Below, piece by piece: positions 9,001 to 35,185 of a DNA stretch of 64,000 nucleotides. The notes below the pieces were generated by a model that saw nothing but the letters and a program-made list of their open reading frames with translations, did no database searches and was not told where the DNA came from. The stretch's first letter is position 1; each line of letters opens with the position of its first letter. The DNA is from Bacteroidota bacterium (GTDB lineage: Bacteria; Bacteroidota; Ignavibacteria; Ignavibacteriales; Ignavibacteriaceae): NCBI GenBank assembly GCA_020161395.1, contig JAIUOE010000004.1:124001-188000 (forward strand). Direction: 5' to 3'. A program made the translations under genes and the position numbers.

Positions 9001-10289
9001 GTGAAATTGTTTCGTATGACGAGAATGTAAATACCAATGCAATTCTAATCGAGGATTTTGACGGAAATGGAATTGCCGAAATAGCTTATCCATATGGAAA
9101 CATCATCAAATTTTTTGAGTTCAACCAGACCACTTCGTTTGCTCCGACTCTGACCTCCGCATTCAGTGTGGACAATTCAAAAATCAGGATCAGCTTTCAG
9201 GGTTCAGCATCGAAATATTTTGTTTACAGAGGGCTTACAGAATCCGAACTTGTTCTTTACGATTCCACGACTTCCCAGTTCTTCAATGATACCGGTGTGG
9301 AGCTGAATAAAAATTATTATTACAAGGTTGAAGGTGTTTCTGGCACCCGTAGAGCGGCCTCCAAAGTGATTAGAGTATTTCATCACTCTCCGGCAAAATA
9401 TTCTTCTGCCTCTGTGAAAACTCTAAATTCTGTTGAAGTTTTGTTTTCGAACAAGATGAGAAAAGAGATTGATAATCCCTCGGGTATCCACCTGATCAAG
9501 GGAAATGAAAAAATCCCGCTTTCCTCCTACACTCCGTCGGGAGAGAATGCTTTCCTTTTAACTTTTTCCTCTAACTTTAATACCGGTCCCAACAGGGTTC
9601 TAATTTCAGGACTTACTGACAATTACGGCTCACCCGTTAGCTCGGATACAGCAACTTTTACTTATACTCCCGGAGTCGTTACAGAGAGTTTCTTTATAGA
9701 AAGCTTCAAAATTCTCGATAATTACACAGTTTCGATCAGAATGAATCTGGATTTGGATCCTGCGACTGCCGGTGATGTCTCTAATTATTCATTTTCACCC
9801 GATAACAAAGTGACTTCCGCGACCGTTTCCCCAACGGATAAGAAGACGGTTATTCTTAGTCTCAAGGGGTCAAAACCGGTCGGATCTTTAGGAAGGGAAT
9901 ACACCCTGACATTGAAAAACATCAGATCGGATGCCGGATCCGGAAACTTGTTGATAAATTCAAACTCAGGTGCTACTATTGTTCTTACAGCCACGGCATC
10001 CAGTCTCGAAGATATCTATACTTTCCCGAGTCCCGTGGACAAATCAAAACACAGGAGCGTCACATTTGCAAATCTTCCGCGGTATGTGGATATAATTATT
10101 TTCAATCTTGAGGGAGTCAGGATTGCAGAGTTTTCGGAAAATGACGGAAATGGTGGAGTGGACTGGAATCTTCTGGACTCTGACGGCAGGGAAGTGCCTT
10201 CCGGAGTATACATTTACCGGGCAACTATGACTGATGGAAAAAAGAATGAACTTGGGACAAAAACCGGAAAGATTGCAATAATAAGATGA
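6075..10289 (+). CDS. Secreted subtilase (S8) with FG-GAP-like repeats and a C-terminal FlgD/T9SS-like domain
   Basis: A 1404-residue exported serine protease. Signal peptide residues 1-20 (cleavage near SQAFSQ). The catalytic triad is Asp153 (VIDTGID), His234 (SHGTAVAG) and Ser388 (NGTSAAAP), with oxyanion Asn326 in SSGNS; a DxDxNG calcium-type insertion lies at about 186-198. Residues about 727-1010 hold six DxDxDGxxE-like FG-GAP/VCBS repeats, a probable beta-propeller, followed by Ig-like domains. The last 90 residues (GVDWNLLDSDGREVPSGVYIY) are a FlgD-like fold used as a type IX sorting domain. It starts inside purF behind AAGGAT and ends at an ATGA overlap with pgsA. Substrate unknown. 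Confidence 0.9.
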   Translation: MKFSRIVLFFVLVIVSQAFSQKIIFVKYKASVPSSEVKSRLDASIKSIIATDAPSKDPKITIAPFAKGLAERIPELSRIVAVRISDEPLAQTVASALKENFEIEYVQEGLTYKIDYIPNDSLVNQQWALSKIGAFESWAITEGRDTVIVSVIDTGIDYKHPDLKNKVFINKGETGKDQQGRDKSSNGIDDDNNGFVDDYMGWDFTDRTGFPFDTTGGDYLDWDNDPMDENIYSHGTAVAGIIGAETNNSFGIAGVAPGIKILNLRSFDPQGYGEEDDVAAAVLYSVLMGAKVINMSFGDYSYSHALRDVVRYAYSKNVVLVGSSGNSNSPDPHYPSGYSEVISVGNSTSEDYVAGSSNYGSTLDLVAPGTQIKTTSRNWNYTDFNGTSAAAPFVTASAALILSKKSFSNEEVKQILKSTADDIGNPGWDIRAGAGRLNLLRALKVLAPSVIKFNFPVQDYSTSSDTLKINATILSSYFKSFSLEYGTGLNPVSWTNLVSERQNQVSEQVIYTFPIKNLKDTVYTLRLKVEQTNSFTAEERVNFRIKRSGTKGELISLLPAYYGDRPTFMAATYTEDPAIVKMYYKRSSESSFSYVTLDGFSTNTGFVKQLHYGFIPRSQIFPSEQYDIYFEVTNEGGFKTEIRDTLDRYFRLNSGDLFRTYEKAQKTFTLPAGYIFDKSILLPGNKKGALIREVMSPETTKLYRFENDKFVTLETDTLNRKIAKDYGDFNKDGVTDLLSLWGYSAHIHKQVNNTGTFQLATSADTSYFWPIGVFDLDRDNKNELLAVRNDTTVVVYSINSDLSLTYKSRFYNQSGMGFGGNTFNSPFLVVKDIDGDSKNEIIFTDSDGDIVVMKVNAINDIKTDKIIRTGYMSSSSFIASGDFNSDGKEDLAVLLQAVPDVDVAPYNRIIIFNFAGTNLNISYDNAFIDPAVEFKSTFQRASNSLKFYDIDSDGKQELLLFTYPYAYIIKSQGLSGEIVSYDENVNTNAILIEDFDGNGIAEIAYPYGNIIKFFEFNQTTSFAPTLTSAFSVDNSKIRISFQGSASKYFVYRGLTESELVLYDSTTSQFFNDTGVELNKNYYYKVEGVSGTRRAASKVIRVFHHSPAKYSSASVKTLNSVEVLFSNKMRKEIDNPSGIHLIKGNEKIPLSSYTPSGENAFLLTFSSNFNTGPNRVLISGLTDNYGSPVSSDTATFTYTPGVVTESFFIESFKILDNYTVSIRMNLDLDPATAGDVSNYSFSPDNKVTSATVSPTDKKTVILSLKGSKPVGSLGREYTLTLKNIRSDAGSGNLLINSNSGATIVLTATASSLEDIYTFPSPVDKSKHRSVTFANLPRYVDIIIFNLEGVRIAEFSENDGNGGVDWNLLDSDGREVPSGVYIYRATMTDGKKNELGTKTGKIAIIR

Positions 10290-10849
10290 TGTTCGGGATC
10301 GAAAAAAAACACTTTTTCCAGGTATCAAATCTTTTGAGTCTTTCAAGACTCTTTGGTTCATTTCCGCTGATATGGTTTTTGGTAAATCCCGACATTCTTG
10401 GAAGGCCCTTAACTGTTCTGCTGGTGTTATTAATAAGCATCACTGATTTTTTTGACGGCTATTTTGCCCGAAAATTTAATCAGGTTTCGGAACTGGGGAA
10501 AATTCTTGATCCTCTCGCTGATAAGGTGCTCGTAATTTCGGTTTCAATCACATTCTATATCACTGGTATACTTGATCCGGTGCTTTTCTTTGTGATTGTG
10601 GCAAGAGATCTACTTATTATGCTTCCGGGTCTATTCCTAAGCAAAAGTATCGGAAGTGTGCCACCCTCCGATTGGTTGGGTAAATGGACATTTTTCTTCA
10701 TCGGTTCATATCTCATTCTTGTTTTTTTACAGTTGAGTGAATCCCTGCTGTTCATGCGAATATATTATTACTCACTGATTGTGTTAATAATCGCATCCTA
10801 TCTAAACTATGTTATAAAAGCTATAAAAATAATAAAGAGTAAAAAATGA
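10286..10849 (+). CDS. pgsA: CDP-alcohol phosphatidyltransferase (PgsA-like)
   Basis: Integral membrane enzyme of 187 residues, most likely CDP-diacylglycerol-glycerol-3-phosphate phosphatidyltransferase, making phosphatidylglycerol phosphate. The CDP-alcohol signature DG-x2-AR-x8-G-x3-D-x3-D is complete from DFFDGYFARKF through GKILDPLADK. Several hydrophobic helices follow. The protein could instead use another alcohol acceptor, as signatures do not separate the family well. Start and stop both overlap neighbours as ATGA, so it is coupled with the subtilase and with ftsY; it may start at either of two adjacent ATGs. Confidence 0.85.
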   Translation: MMFGIEKKHFFQVSNLLSLSRLFGSFPLIWFLVNPDILGRPLTVLLVLLISITDFFDGYFARKFNQVSELGKILDPLADKVLVISVSITFYITGILDPVLFFVIVARDLLIMLPGLFLSKSIGSVPPSDWLGKWTFFFIGSYLILVFLQLSESLLFMRIYYYSLIVLIIASYLNYVIKAIKIIKSKK

Positions 10850-11787
10850 GTTTTATTAAGAATTTTAATTTTGGAAAACTAAAAGACGGGCTTTCGAAAA
10901 CACGGGACAAAATATTCAATAAAATTTCTGAAACAGTTACAGGCAAGGCTGTAATTGATGAAATTACACTCGAAGAGATGGAAGAGATTTTGATCACTTC
11001 AGATATCGGATATGATCTTGCAATGAAAATTGTTGATGAAGTTCGGAAAAAACTTAAGTCAGAAAAAGACCGTTCCGGAGAAAATGTATTGGCAGTTGTA
11101 AAGGCAGTTCTTGAGGAAGAACTCGAGCACTCACTCTCTTCAAAGGAGTATGTTCCTGATGTTGAGCAACACAAACCTTTTGTTATCCTTATTGTAGGTG
11201 TAAATGGAGCAGGAAAAACCACCACGATCGGAAAACTTGCCCATAACTTTAAACTATCGGGCTGGAAAGTAGTTGTTGGAGCTGCAGATACCTTCAGAGC
11301 TGCGGCAAATGAACAACTCGAAATATGGGCTGACAGAGCTGGAGTTCCAATTATTTCCAGACACCAGGGTGCAGATCCCTCCTCGGTTGCATTTGAGACA
11401 ATTCAGGAGGCTATCAGAATCAATGCCGATGTGGTAATGATAGATACTGCGGGCCGACTTCACACCAAAGTGAATTTGATGGAAGAATTGAAGAAGATCA
11501 AAAATGTGATTTCCAAAAAGCTGCCTGATGCACCAAATGAGATATTTTTAGTGGTTGACGGTACAACAGGTCAGAATGCCGTGCAACAAGGGAAGGAGTT
11601 CTCAAAAGTTACCGAGCTTTCTGGCTTGATAGTTACAAAACTTGATGGAACTGCGAAAGGCGGGGTAATCTTTCAAATTTGCAGGGAACTGAAAGTACCT
11701 GTAAGGTATATCGGAGTTGGTGAGGGGATAGAAGACCTTCAGAATTTCGACCCCCGGATGTATGTTGAAGCAATTTTTTCAAAGTAA
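10846..11787 (+). CDS. ftsY: Signal recognition particle receptor FtsY
   Basis: SRP GTPase that docks ribosome-SRP complexes at the membrane. At 313 residues it has only a short basic N-terminus before the NG domain, not the long acidic A domain of E. coli. GTPase elements visible: G1 GVNGAGKTTTIGKL, the insertion-box motif DTFRAAANEQLE, G3 DTAGRLHT, G4 TKLDGTAKGG, and the closing GVGEGIEDLQ-FDP. It starts at the ATGA overlap with pgsA. The neighbouring lipid genes fit a membrane biogenesis group. Confidence 0.96.
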   Translation: MSFIKNFNFGKLKDGLSKTRDKIFNKISETVTGKAVIDEITLEEMEEILITSDIGYDLAMKIVDEVRKKLKSEKDRSGENVLAVVKAVLEEELEHSLSSKEYVPDVEQHKPFVILIVGVNGAGKTTTIGKLAHNFKLSGWKVVVGAADTFRAAANEQLEIWADRAGVPIISRHQGADPSSVAFETIQEAIRINADVVMIDTAGRLHTKVNLMEELKKIKNVISKKLPDAPNEIFLVVDGTTGQNAVQQGKEFSKVTELSGLIVTKLDGTAKGGVIFQICRELKVPVRYIGVGEGIEDLQNFDPRMYVEAIFSK

Positions 11788-11802
11788 ACCAGAGAATAAC
11801 TT

Positions 11803-12714
11803 CTGAACCTGCCTGAAAACAAATATCTGATAATCAACTCCCTCTCCGGTAACGGAAGAGGCAGGAAGTTTGCCGGACTGATCGGGCATTCCGGTTTAAT
11901 ATCCGGATTACGGGTTTTTCTTCCAAAAACTCTCGACGAGGCTTCAAGATACTACAATGATTTAAACAGGAGTGATAGCCACATTTTCCTGGCAGGAGGT
12001 GACGGCACATTTAATTCTCTCGTGAATCTTGTTCCACCACCTTACCGTTTCTCTTTATCATTAATACCCACAGGATCCGGAAACGACCTTACCAAATATT
12101 TTCATCTTTCAAACAACCCTGTCGATGTTCTAAATGCAGCTTTGGAGGCTTCTGAATCAGTTGCAATGGATGTATGGGATTTAAGAATCACATTCGCAGA
12201 TGGTAGTGTTGAGAAGAAAAAATTTATCAATACCTCGGGGATAGGATTCGACGCCTATGTTGGTAAATTGAAAGAAAAGAAGAAGTTCCTGACCGGGATG
12301 ACGGTTTATATCATTTCTCTTATTCAGGCACTATTCTCTTATACACCTGTCAGATACAAACTGTCCACAGGGAATGGAAAGAATTTGAGCGGCGAAGCCA
12401 TGTTTATCACGACGGGAAACGGAATCTTTTCAGGTGGAGGTTTTAAATTGACACCCGACGCAAAAGTTGATGATGGACTGGCAGATGTTTGTATCGTCGA
12501 AAATATGTCCCTGCCCAGGATTTTTAAGAATCTGCCTAAAGCAATTACAGGCTCTCACCTTGGATTGAAAGAGGTAACTTGTTTTACAACAAACAATTAT
12601 ACTATCTCACTTGATGAACCGGCATACCTGCATCTTGACGGAGAATCATCTGCGGATCTGGTCAAAGAAATCAGATTGTCAATCTCACCACACAAATTAA
12701 ATGTCATATATTAA
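11803..12714 (+). CDS. Diacylglycerol kinase / lipid kinase-like protein (start probably non-canonical CTG)
   Basis: DagK/YegS catalytic family: ATP-dependent phosphorylation of diacylglycerol or a related lipid. The N-terminal strand KYLIINSLSGNGRGRK, the nucleotide loop AGGDGTFN and PTGSGNDL are all present, followed by FINTSGIGFDAYVG and a C-terminal LHLDGE. The conserved N-terminus starts far upstream of the first in-frame GTG (12022), which would remove the GGDGT motif. Between the stop at 11797 and 12022 there is no in-frame ATG, GTG or TTG; CTG at 11803, 6 nt behind AGAGAA, gives a normal 303-residue protein. Alternative: a 1-nt indel joining an overlapping frame that begins ATG at 11762. 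Confidence 0.75.
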   Translation: MNLPENKYLIINSLSGNGRGRKFAGLIGHSGLISGLRVFLPKTLDEASRYYNDLNRSDSHIFLAGGDGTFNSLVNLVPPPYRFSLSLIPTGSGNDLTKYFHLSNNPVDVLNAALEASESVAMDVWDLRITFADGSVEKKKFINTSGIGFDAYVGKLKEKKKFLTGMTVYIISLIQALFSYTPVRYKLSTGNGKNLSGEAMFITTGNGIFSGGGFKLTPDAKVDDGLADVCIVENMSLPRIFKNLPKAITGSHLGLKEVTCFTTNNYTISLDEPAYLHLDGESSADLVKEIRLSISPHKLNVIY

Positions 12715-12760
12715 GTTTTTACCCTGCCGATCTGTCTTAATTAAAAGGACTTTCCGTACC

Positions 12761-15562
12761 ATGCAACTGACAAAATTATCAATCTTAACCATATTTCTGT
12801 TCGCGATCAATCTTTTTCCTCAGTCCGCTACGGATTCAATTCCAAAACATCGTTCCGTTTTGGAAGGGACTCTCCCAAACGGTCTAAAGTATTCAATACT
12901 TAAAAACAGATTACCTGAAAAAAAGGCTGAACTGCGACTGGTGATATTGACAGGTTCATTGAATGAGCGCGATGATCAAAAAGGGCTCGCACATTTTACT
13001 GAGCACATGCTGTTTAATGGAACAAAGAATTTCCCTGGAAATAAAGTGATCGATTTTCTTGAGCTTCTCGGTATGAAATTTGGTCCTGAAATAAATGCCT
13101 ACACTTCGACAGAAGAAACTGTGTATATGCTCACTGTGCCTACAGATCGTGAATCGATTCTTGATTCTGCTTTTATGGTGCTTTCCGACTGGGCGTTTCA
13201 AGCGACTTTCGACTCGCTGGAAATCGAGAAGGAGAGGGGAGTGGTGCTTGAGGAAATGCGAATGGGTAAGGGTGCGGAAGGGAGAATCAGGGACATTCAG
13301 TTTCCTGTTCTTTTCCATAACTCAAGATTCGCACAGAGATTACCGATCGGAGATGAAAATATTCTAAAGTCTTTTCCACACAAGGCTTTGACAGATTACT
13401 ACAAAGAGTGGTACAAGCCGGAATTAATGTCGTTGGTGGTTGTGGGTGATTTTAAAGCCGGGGACATGGAAAGACTCGTCAAAAAGTATTTCGGGTCTTA
13501 CAGTGCCTCTGAAAGCCCTAAGAAGCGAATTATTTATGAAGTTCCGGATCATAAAGAGAGACTTTATTCAATCGTTGGTGACAAGGAAACCACCTTGAGC
13601 AATGTGGTGATAGTGAATAAGCGTCCAGTGCTGAAGGCTAATACTGTGGCTGACTATAAAAAAGGGATCATTCACCAGATTGTCGGTTCCATTCTTAGTG
13701 AACGACTGTTTGATATCTCTAAATCAAGCAATTCACCACTACAGAATGGTGGGGGATATTCCACAACCCTTTCTTATAATAAAGGTGCGTTCGTTCTCTA
13801 CGCCACTTCCAAAGAAAATTTAATCGATTCGTCTTTTTCTCTTCTCCTTCTCGAGGGTGAAAAAATGAAAAGATATGGTTTTACTAATGAGGAATTCTCA
13901 CGGGCAAAGGAAAATCTTAACGCATCGATGGACAATTATTACCGGGAGAAGGACAACCAGTATTCCTCCGGTGTAGTGAATGCCTTGCTTGATCAGTTTA
14001 TTAATGATGCTATTTACACAGATATTGAAACGGGTTATAAGATTTACAAGGAAATTGTACCACAGATTACACTTGCGGAATTAAATAAAATTGCCTCAGA
14101 GCTGATCACTGATTCGAATATGGTCACTCTTATATCATATCCGGAAAAAACAGGGGTAAAGGTTCCAAAAAAGGAAGATCTTGAAAACATCTTCAAATCT
14201 GTTTCCACGATGGAGATTGTAAAACCTCAATCAACTGAAGTAAACAAGCCGCTAGTGGAAGTGGAACCAAAACCCGGCAGGATTCTCTCAGAGGAAAACC
14301 TTGATGTGTATGATGTAAAATTGCTGACTTTGAGTAACGGAGCTAAAGTTTATCTTAAAAAAACCGCGTTGCAAAAAGATGAAGTGCTGATGTACGGTTT
14401 TAGCAGAGGCGGTCTATCCAAAGTTGAGGAAAGAGACCTTGTTTCAGCAAATTATGCCACTTCGATCGTCGAGGAATCGGGTTTGGGTGATTTCAACCTT
14501 ACTGAACTTTACAAGAAACTTGCAGGAAAAATGATCTCTGTCCAGACTAATGTGACCGAGCTTTATGAGGAAATTAACGGACAAAGTTCGGTTAATGATC
14601 TCGAGGATTTCTTTCGGCTGGTGTATCTCACATTTGAAAAACCGCGTCTGGATACGATTTCCACCGCAAATTTTATGGAAAAACTAAAAAGTTATCTGAT
14701 AAATGAAGGACTTTCACCCGATAATGTGTTTTATGATTCAATAGTTGTGGCTCTGTACAACGACAACCCGCGCATGAAACCGATGAGTATCGGTCGCTTC
14801 GGTGAAATAAATCAACAAAAGGCATATCAGATATTCAAGGAGAGATTCAATTCAGCAGGCGATTTTACTTTTGTTTTTACAGGAAATTTCGATGAAGATG
14901 TTATTAAATCACTTATTTGCAGGTATATAGCATCCCAAAAAAGTGTTGAGCATGAAGAATGGCTCGACAGGGGAGTCAGATATGCGCAAAATGGTGTTGA
15001 GAAAACTGTGAAAAAAGGGATGGAAAACAAGGCAACAGTTTTTATAGCCTTCCCGGGAAGGTACAACTGGAGCAGAAAAAGCAATCTTGAATTGACAATT
15101 CTGCAAAAAGTGCTTGATGTTAAGCTTAATGAGGTTATTCGGGAGGAACTTGGCGGAAGTTATTCTATTTCAGCCGGTGTCAGTTTTAATCAGTATCCTG
15201 AATCGCAATTCAATAATACTGTGTTTTTTAATTGTGACCCTGCCAGAAAGGAAGAACTTACCGCAAAAACCGTGTCCATTATCGATTCTTTAGTTCAAAA
15301 CTTCAATGATGAAACAACGCTTCAGAAGGCGAAGGAAAATGCTCTTAAGGAACGCGAAGAAGTTTTCCAGACGAACGGAGGCATACTTAACCTGATCAGT
15401 TCACACGCAATGAGCGGTTCTGATTTAAAAGGATTCGCAGAAGGAAATGAGATCATCAGAAAGATGACACTACAGGATATTTCAGAGATGGCAAAGAAAA
15501 CCTTTAACAAAAAATCGATGTTAAAATTCTACCTGATTCCGGCAGTTGAAGTGAAAAAGTAA
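12761..15562 (+). CDS. Periplasmic M16 zinc peptidase (pitrilysin/insulinase family)
   Basis: A 933-residue double-domain M16 protease. The inverted zinc motif HFTEH is at residues 78-82, and the downstream Glu helix is ERGVVLEEM. The second half repeats the M16 fold without the zinc motif (from about residue 510), as in pitrilysin-type enzymes. A longer frame begins at 12701, but ATG 12761 is preferred: it has AAAGGA 11 nt upstream, leaves the upstream stop free and starts a clean signal peptide (QLTKLSILTIFLFAINLF, cut after FPQS). It probably degrades peptides in the periplasm; no lipobox or sorting domain is seen. Confidence 0.9.
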   Translation: MQLTKLSILTIFLFAINLFPQSATDSIPKHRSVLEGTLPNGLKYSILKNRLPEKKAELRLVILTGSLNERDDQKGLAHFTEHMLFNGTKNFPGNKVIDFLELLGMKFGPEINAYTSTEETVYMLTVPTDRESILDSAFMVLSDWAFQATFDSLEIEKERGVVLEEMRMGKGAEGRIRDIQFPVLFHNSRFAQRLPIGDENILKSFPHKALTDYYKEWYKPELMSLVVVGDFKAGDMERLVKKYFGSYSASESPKKRIIYEVPDHKERLYSIVGDKETTLSNVVIVNKRPVLKANTVADYKKGIIHQIVGSILSERLFDISKSSNSPLQNGGGYSTTLSYNKGAFVLYATSKENLIDSSFSLLLLEGEKMKRYGFTNEEFSRAKENLNASMDNYYREKDNQYSSGVVNALLDQFINDAIYTDIETGYKIYKEIVPQITLAELNKIASELITDSNMVTLISYPEKTGVKVPKKEDLENIFKSVSTMEIVKPQSTEVNKPLVEVEPKPGRILSEENLDVYDVKLLTLSNGAKVYLKKTALQKDEVLMYGFSRGGLSKVEERDLVSANYATSIVEESGLGDFNLTELYKKLAGKMISVQTNVTELYEEINGQSSVNDLEDFFRLVYLTFEKPRLDTISTANFMEKLKSYLINEGLSPDNVFYDSIVVALYNDNPRMKPMSIGRFGEINQQKAYQIFKERFNSAGDFTFVFTGNFDEDVIKSLICRYIASQKSVEHEEWLDRGVRYAQNGVEKTVKKGMENKATVFIAFPGRYNWSRKSNLELTILQKVLDVKLNEVIREELGGSYSISAGVSFNQYPESQFNNTVFFNCDPARKEELTAKTVSIIDSLVQNFNDETTLQKAKENALKEREEVFQTNGGILNLISSHAMSGSDLKGFAEGNEIIRKMTLQDISEMAKKTFNKKSMLKFYLIPAVEVKK

Positions 15563-35044: not shown

Positions 35045-35159
35045 ATCAAAAGCACGACGGACTGAACAAACAGAAAGAGGTTCATAACTCTGATTTAGAA
35101 CAAGTACAAAGGTATTGTGTAAGACGGATTGATTTTTCTGGAAGCTGAATTGTTGCTCC

Positions 35160-35185
35160 TTTCTTGTTTATTATGGAACAAGAAA
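35160..35185 (-). promoter_or_regulatory. Perfect 9-bp inverted repeat abutting the HNH ribosome site
   Basis: On the - strand TTTCTTGTT (35185-35177), an 8-nt loop, then AACAAGAAA (35168-35160), whose last A is the first base of the AGGAG Shine-Dalgarno of the HNH gene. Nine of nine pairs match. It may be an RNA stem that covers the ribosome site or an operator. No T-run follows, so it does not look like a terminator of acpS. Confidence 0.45.

Follow-up and report, generated by a model that had tools for sequence, protein, structure and literature searches.

The gene for a lipid kinase of the YegS/DAGK type, located just downstream of ftsY, appears to be intact and to start translation at a CUG codon, the CTG at 11803–11805 of the forward strand, a reading to which we assign a probability of about 0.78 from sequence comparison. 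Positions are those of the window, by which is meant the whole 64,000-nucleotide stretch analysed (G000:C4:124001-188000), and the genome that carries it, G000, comprises 4.07 Mb in 21 contigs. Among at least 80 loci matched with its FtsY, the best named relatives include MAGs of Ignavibacteriae and Melioribacteraceae, and the source is accordingly taken to be an Ignavibacteriales-like bacterium. Three elements of this reading are settled by the sequence: the kinase frame has no canonical start (ATG, GTG or TTG) ahead of its conserved N-terminus, the absence is common to two species, and the N-terminal part is constrained. CUG is allowed as a bacterial start in NCBI translation table 11, and a start of this kind is known, albeit rare.

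A kinase frame without a canonical start

The genes of the locus are arranged in the order of a pgsA-like gene (10286–10849), ftsY (10846–11787), the kinase, and an M16 peptidase gene (12701–15562). The ftsY gene, which encodes the SRP receptor (forward strand; TIGR00064, 359.3 bits against a cut-off of 260.7), is in the same reading frame as the kinase downstream and ends in TAA at 11785–11787. It is followed by 15 nt (11788–11802, forward strand) that contain a weak Shine–Dalgarno (SD) match and an in-frame TAA at 11797–11799 and that lead to the proposed CTG. The kinase frame itself extends from 11800 to a stop at 12712–12714, and the gene would occupy 11803–12714 on the forward strand, giving a product of 303 amino acids, if CTG 11803 is the start. 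Read directly, the first ATG, GTG or TTG in this frame after the TAA is the GTG at 12022–12024 (forward strand), which lies downstream of the GGDGTFN motif and is rejected here as the start. In another frame, ATG 11762 (MLKQFFQSKPENNF) opens a mini-frame of 14 codons (11762–11806, forward strand), which terminates at 11804–11806 in the TGA of a CTGA. The first-pass annotation had reported that the kinase N-terminus is encoded without any canonical codon before GTG 12022, and direct reading bears this out in every coordinate.

By its domains, the product is placed in the YegS/DAGK lipid kinase family, as both DAGK_cat (PF00781, 50.9 bits against 23.6) and YegS_C (PF19279, 98.2 against 27) score above their gathering thresholds, the former match beginning at residue 7 when the product is read from 11806. 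The cut-off of the NCBI subfamily TIGR00147 is missed (111.5 against 118.65 bits), and the assignment of the kinase goes no further than a protein with DAGK_cat and YegS_C domains. Eight solved lipid kinases were matched, of which 4wer and 2p1r align from their own residues 7–8 and 2jgr from residue 10, the other five aligning only from further inside. With one kinase match each in G000 and in its congener G003, no spare copy of the gene was seen in either genome.

Constraint on the N-terminal part

G003 represents a second species of the genus and has a collinear counterpart of the window, covered by a single 64-kb alignment at 90.6% identity. Across the 74 codons from 11800 to 12021, the two genomes differ by 29 synonymous codon changes and a single non-synonymous one. 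Over 11803–12021, dN/dS is 0.006 at a dS of 1.07 in the kinase frame, and reading the stretch in the alternative frames gives 1.8 and 3.0; over the remainder of the gene it is 0.066, and G003 has no stops. A value of 0.006 makes it unlikely that translation begins at GTG 12022, that the sequence is in error or that the gene is dead, and at a dS of 1.07 it indicates that the arrangement has persisted through much divergence.

Two rival explanations bear directly on these numbers. Translation from GTG 12022, which had been raised in the first-pass annotation and is the earliest canonical start in the frame, would produce a truncated protein of 230 residues; such a start would cut off the N-terminal part with its GGDGT motif, and it is contradicted by the constraint on precisely the 73 codons (11803–12021) that would be lost, which leaves it very improbable. 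The other holds that the kinase gene has lost its start and is decaying, in keeping with the disappearance of the canonical start and with the little protein that CUG would yield, but the low dN/dS in both parts of the gene, the lack of stops in G003 and the presence of the arrangement in two species make it scarcely credible.

A separate observation concerns the region upstream. The segment 10250–11787, which holds the pgsA-like gene and ftsY, is nearly identical in G003, with a dS of 0.08 for ftsY compared with 1.07 for the adjoining N-terminal part of the kinase, and this jump at the end of ftsY resembles the edge of a recombination tract.

The ftsY–kinase junction in relatives

At the junction, G003 differs from G000 by substitutions only and has no indel, being of the same length over 11750–11820, and its ATG 11762 frame again ends in the TGA. 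The first-pass annotation had left two readings side by side, use of the CTG or an indel near 11801–11804 that joined the frame of ATG 11762 to that of the kinase. The first of these is favoured by the conservation of CTG 11803 and by the lack of a canonical start in G003 as well, and the second, taken as a sequence error, finds no support in the comparison. A missing or extra base that conceals an ATG, introduced in sequencing or assembly, might be suspected from the way the ATG 11762 frame ends exactly on the TGA at 11804–11806, but the same arrangement in G003, at ~92% DNA identity here and with substitutions only, renders an error of this kind extremely unlikely. In the comparison with homologues, which the annotation had proposed as a check, a joining indel is absent from G003, and an evolutionary change in length is present relative to two other congeners, G001 and G002.

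Within the junction, the codon at 11800 is CTT in G000 and CTG in G003, that at 11809 is CTG in G000 and CTC in G003, and that at 11803 is CTG in both. A CTG conserved amid varying neighbours is suggestive, although with two species the exact codon is not proven. Initiation at another non-standard codon close by (11800, 11809, or several of the three) would draw on the CTG CTG that G003 has at 11800–11805, on the CTG at 11809 in the window, and on SD matches that are weak before all three candidates. However, the window has CTT at 11800 and G003 has CTC at 11809, leaving 11803 as the sole shared CTG, and we regard a start at one of the neighbours as doubtful.

The wider set of relatives was covered by a kinase search in which 41 of 59 genomes matched, the own genome counted. 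Thirty loci were kept from this search and one was added for G002; with G000, G003 and a cut locus (L005) left out, 28 were read. In the printed frames, an ATG, GTG or TTG precedes the conserved N-terminal strand in all 28, and ftsY is found upstream of the kinase within the locus in 26. In G001 and G002, the kinase ATG overlaps the TGA stop of ftsY by 4 nt (−4, ATGA). G000 and G003 lack the overlapping ATG and end ftsY with TAA, and their junction exceeds that of these two congeners by 13 alignment columns. The other 24 loci have 0 to 82 nt between the ftsY stop and the first in-frame canonical start. By parsimony, the canonical starts in the other relatives point to loss of the start on the branch of G000 and G003, the only two species that carry the CUG-start trait. 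A kinase scan of wider genome contigs gave no match, in a scanned set from which near genomes may be left out.

The junction also bears on a possible fusion of FtsY and the kinase, produced by readthrough of stops or by frameshifting from the ATG 11762 mini-frame. The two proteins are indeed encoded in one frame, and since the TAA at 11797 of G000 is TAC in G003, a single stop parts them there. In the window, however, two UAA stops intervene, inspection revealed no slippery heptamer at the change of frame, and the kinase of G001 and G002 has its own ATG in a frame different from that of ftsY, so that expression as a fusion has very little to recommend it. The mini-frame was in addition considered as a leader peptide and rejected, because the two changes that separate G000 from G003 after the ftsY stop are each non-synonymous when read in the mini-frame, and because this ATG runs straight into a TAG in G001 and G002; it is probably incidental.

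Proposed initiation at CUG 11803

The preferred reading, initiation at CUG 11803, would imply the following scheme. Two congeners join ftsY and the kinase by an ATGA overlap, and the lineage of G000 and G003 would instead use a CUG behind a longer junction. Initiation at this codon would be effected, weakly, by the ordinary initiator tRNA, perhaps assisted by ribosomes that terminate on ftsY 15 nt upstream, and the outcome would be a low kinase output. Among 44 tRNA matches (150 of 225 candidates scored), ARAGORN typing gave, with others, three with anticodon CAU, one with GAA and one with CAG, and one of the three CAU tRNAs shows initiator features. An odd initiator tRNA was considered and rejected, as no odd anticodon occurs among the 44 matches, of which five sequences were inspected.

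The SD match before the CTG covers 3 nt at a spacing of 8, compared with at least 4 nt in 125 of 226 surveyed genes whose starts were picked by a simple ad hoc rule, and RNA structure at the junction is not notable (z −1.6). In a study of coupled genes, reinitiation drops by 40–80% at a gap of +14 nt, and gaps of ~20 nt nearly abolish coupling (PMC10666635). Given this near-abolition, help from ftsY across 15 nt may be small, and partial coupling between the two genes is possible. CUG complexes are less stable than those on AUG, GUG and UUG (PMC11497404). Taken together, the weak SD match, the steep loss of reinitiation with distance and the weaker CUG complexes lead us to expect a low kinase output.

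Rarity of candidate non-canonical starts

The frequency of such starts was surveyed by comparing G000 with G003 over 226 genes in 258 kb of the contig that holds the window (G000:C4) and 225 genes in 289 kb of a second contig (G000:C1), with genes defined by an ad hoc rule and with a survey that is blind to genes showing no difference between the two genomes in their upstream codons. On G000:C4, 12 of the 226 genes have at least 15 non-overlapping codons before the first ATG, GTG or TTG, and the constraint rule was passed by two of these 12, both inside the window: the kinase gene and one for an HNH nuclease. A third candidate (G000:C4:20519-21121; L159:519-1121), with 4 non-synonymous and 11 synonymous changes, narrowly failed the constraint rule; it was rejected because a TAG breaks its frame in G000 and the frame is open in G003, and it is probably a recently broken gene. 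On G000:C1, a looser rule listed 26 of 225 genes and flagged one small frame of 83 codons (C1:468983-469231), which was likewise rejected as a non-canonical start because G003 has a stop inside it. The kinase and the HNH gene are the sole credible candidates for a non-canonical start among the 451 compared genes. Gene callers that admit only ATG, GTG and TTG would truncate or miss both. As a side observation, the infC frame (L205, G000:C4:51176-51676) opens with AAT TTG ATA after a stop, so that its start is either TTG or a non-standard codon.

A candidate UUC start in the HNH-nuclease gene

In the HNH-nuclease gene (PF01844; 34616–35149, reverse strand), too, the conserved N-terminus is encoded with no canonical start ahead of it. 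The proposed start is a TTC (UUC) at 35147–35149 of the reverse strand, with the SD sequence AAGGAG (35156–35161, reverse strand) 6 nt ahead of it. The 41 codons before the first ATG differ from those of G003 by four synonymous changes and no non-synonymous one, and one of the four falls ahead of NTFVLVLNQ.

The SD–TTC arrangement itself is settled by sequence in the loci that were read. An HNH search matched 56 of the 59 genomes searched, the own genome included, and with two weak matches (G025 and G037) set aside the start region was read in the remaining 54, which are the order loci counted here. An in-frame TTC follows an SD match of at least 4 bases by 3–10 nt in all 54, at a spacing of 5 or 6 nt in 33. 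At this SD spacing ATG occurs in one locus of the 54, and neither GTG nor TTG in any; GTC and GAA are frequent there (25 and 38 of 54 in the order, 10 and 2 of 27 in the rest of the class) because both flank the TTC. The stretch from the preceding stop to the conserved region is free of any ATG, GTG or TTG in 42 of the order loci and contains one somewhere in the other 12. A script permitting either TTC or TTT picked TTC in 54 of 54, and the downstream Phe codons in the parts read of 81 order and class genes comprise 94 TTC and 150 TTT; since the script's choice of codon is doubtful in L259, L261, L267 and L271, the count at SD spacing was used for totals.

Outside the order, the class has SD plus TTC in 24 of 27 matching genomes, the exceptions being L259, L260 and L267. 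As controls, 12 genomes were taken from the 109 that matched in other classes of the phylum; SD plus in-frame TTC occurs in none of the 12, and their starts beside the conserved KVLVLN motif, judged by eye, are ATG in 11 and GTG in one. Behind an SD match of at least 5 bases, the in-frame and out-of-frame counts of TTC are 46 and 4 for the order, 23 and 2 for the class, and 0 and 3 for the controls. In five class loci (L200, L258, L263, L264 and L266), the leader between TTC and conserved domain has 24 codons, compared with 10–12 in the order, and these longer leaders retain the TTC at SD spacing.

The codon ahead of the TTC varies among loci and in G001 is the stop itself, so that there the start cannot lie further upstream. 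A canonical triplet in any frame occurs within 9 nt of the TTC in 12 of 54 order loci, and frameshifting after an ordinary start is therefore unlikely to be the general explanation. Six order genomes are single contigs (G004, G010, G021, G028, G054 and G056), which argues against assembly error. The ten codons after the TTC were compared in 12 pairs of congeners and in one pair drawn from different genera, with two genomes entering twice, and 29 synonymous and 18 non-synonymous changes were counted; without constraint, about three non-synonymous changes per synonymous one are expected. RNA folding lends no support to an open start, as mean unpairedness is 0.34 at the TTC and 0.41 at the SD compared with 0.48–0.58 in the flanks, and the alifold energy of 53 start regions is 0 for the real and all 50 shuffled alignments and hence uninformative.

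From these patterns, the HNH gene looks like a case of class-wide UUC initiation, and the simplest account would be initiation at UUC aided by the SD. Initiation by Phe-tRNA or by an unknown factor is a possible alternative. On balance, we favour the view that the window holds two non-standard starts and that the UUC of the HNH gene, a codon normally rejected by IF3 and here used through most of the class, is kept by selection, likeliest for a low, IF3-dependent level of the nuclease. The likeliest mechanism would be a brake that acts on the nuclease gene through IF3. In an in vitro study, UUC complexes form without IF3 at near-AUG rates with ~30% lower amplitude, and with IF3 they fail to become productive (PMC7907450). 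A natural UUC start was not found in the literature searched, outside which most subscription journals lie; the one relevant paper that came up there describes in vitro work (PMC7907450).

Comparison with known systems

The kinase offers a natural comparison of how the loss of a start is survived, with an ATGA overlap in two congeners and a CUG in two others. The UUC start of the HNH gene, if true, would mean that a codon ignored by standard gene finders is used naturally across a class, and would provide a test bed for IF3 fidelity.

Starts of the infC/pcnB type, at AUU, are gated by IF3. They resemble what is proposed for the HNH gene in placing a non-standard codon behind a good SD, whereas UUC fails to pair with the initiator anticodon at two positions. 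The YegS/DgkB lipid kinases (PDB 2qv7, 2p1r and 4wer) have their domains and the GGDGT motif in common with the window kinase, which differs in falling below the curated TIGR00147 cut-off. With respect to its start, the nearest parallel is the rare AUG-to-CUG switch, counted twice in 61,358 in one survey (PMC5622118); as in the kinase, the codon is one base from AUG and an ordinary coding gene lies downstream. However, the AUG relatives of the kinase also differ from it by a 13-nt change in length and by the ATGA overlap, and its CTG has been kept across a dS of ~1. Finally, in G001 and G002 the ftsY–kinase pair has exactly the −4 overlap of the ATGA termination–reinitiation pairs (PMC10666635), whereas G000 and G003 have neither a −4 nor a −1 overlap and separate the two genes by 15 nt.
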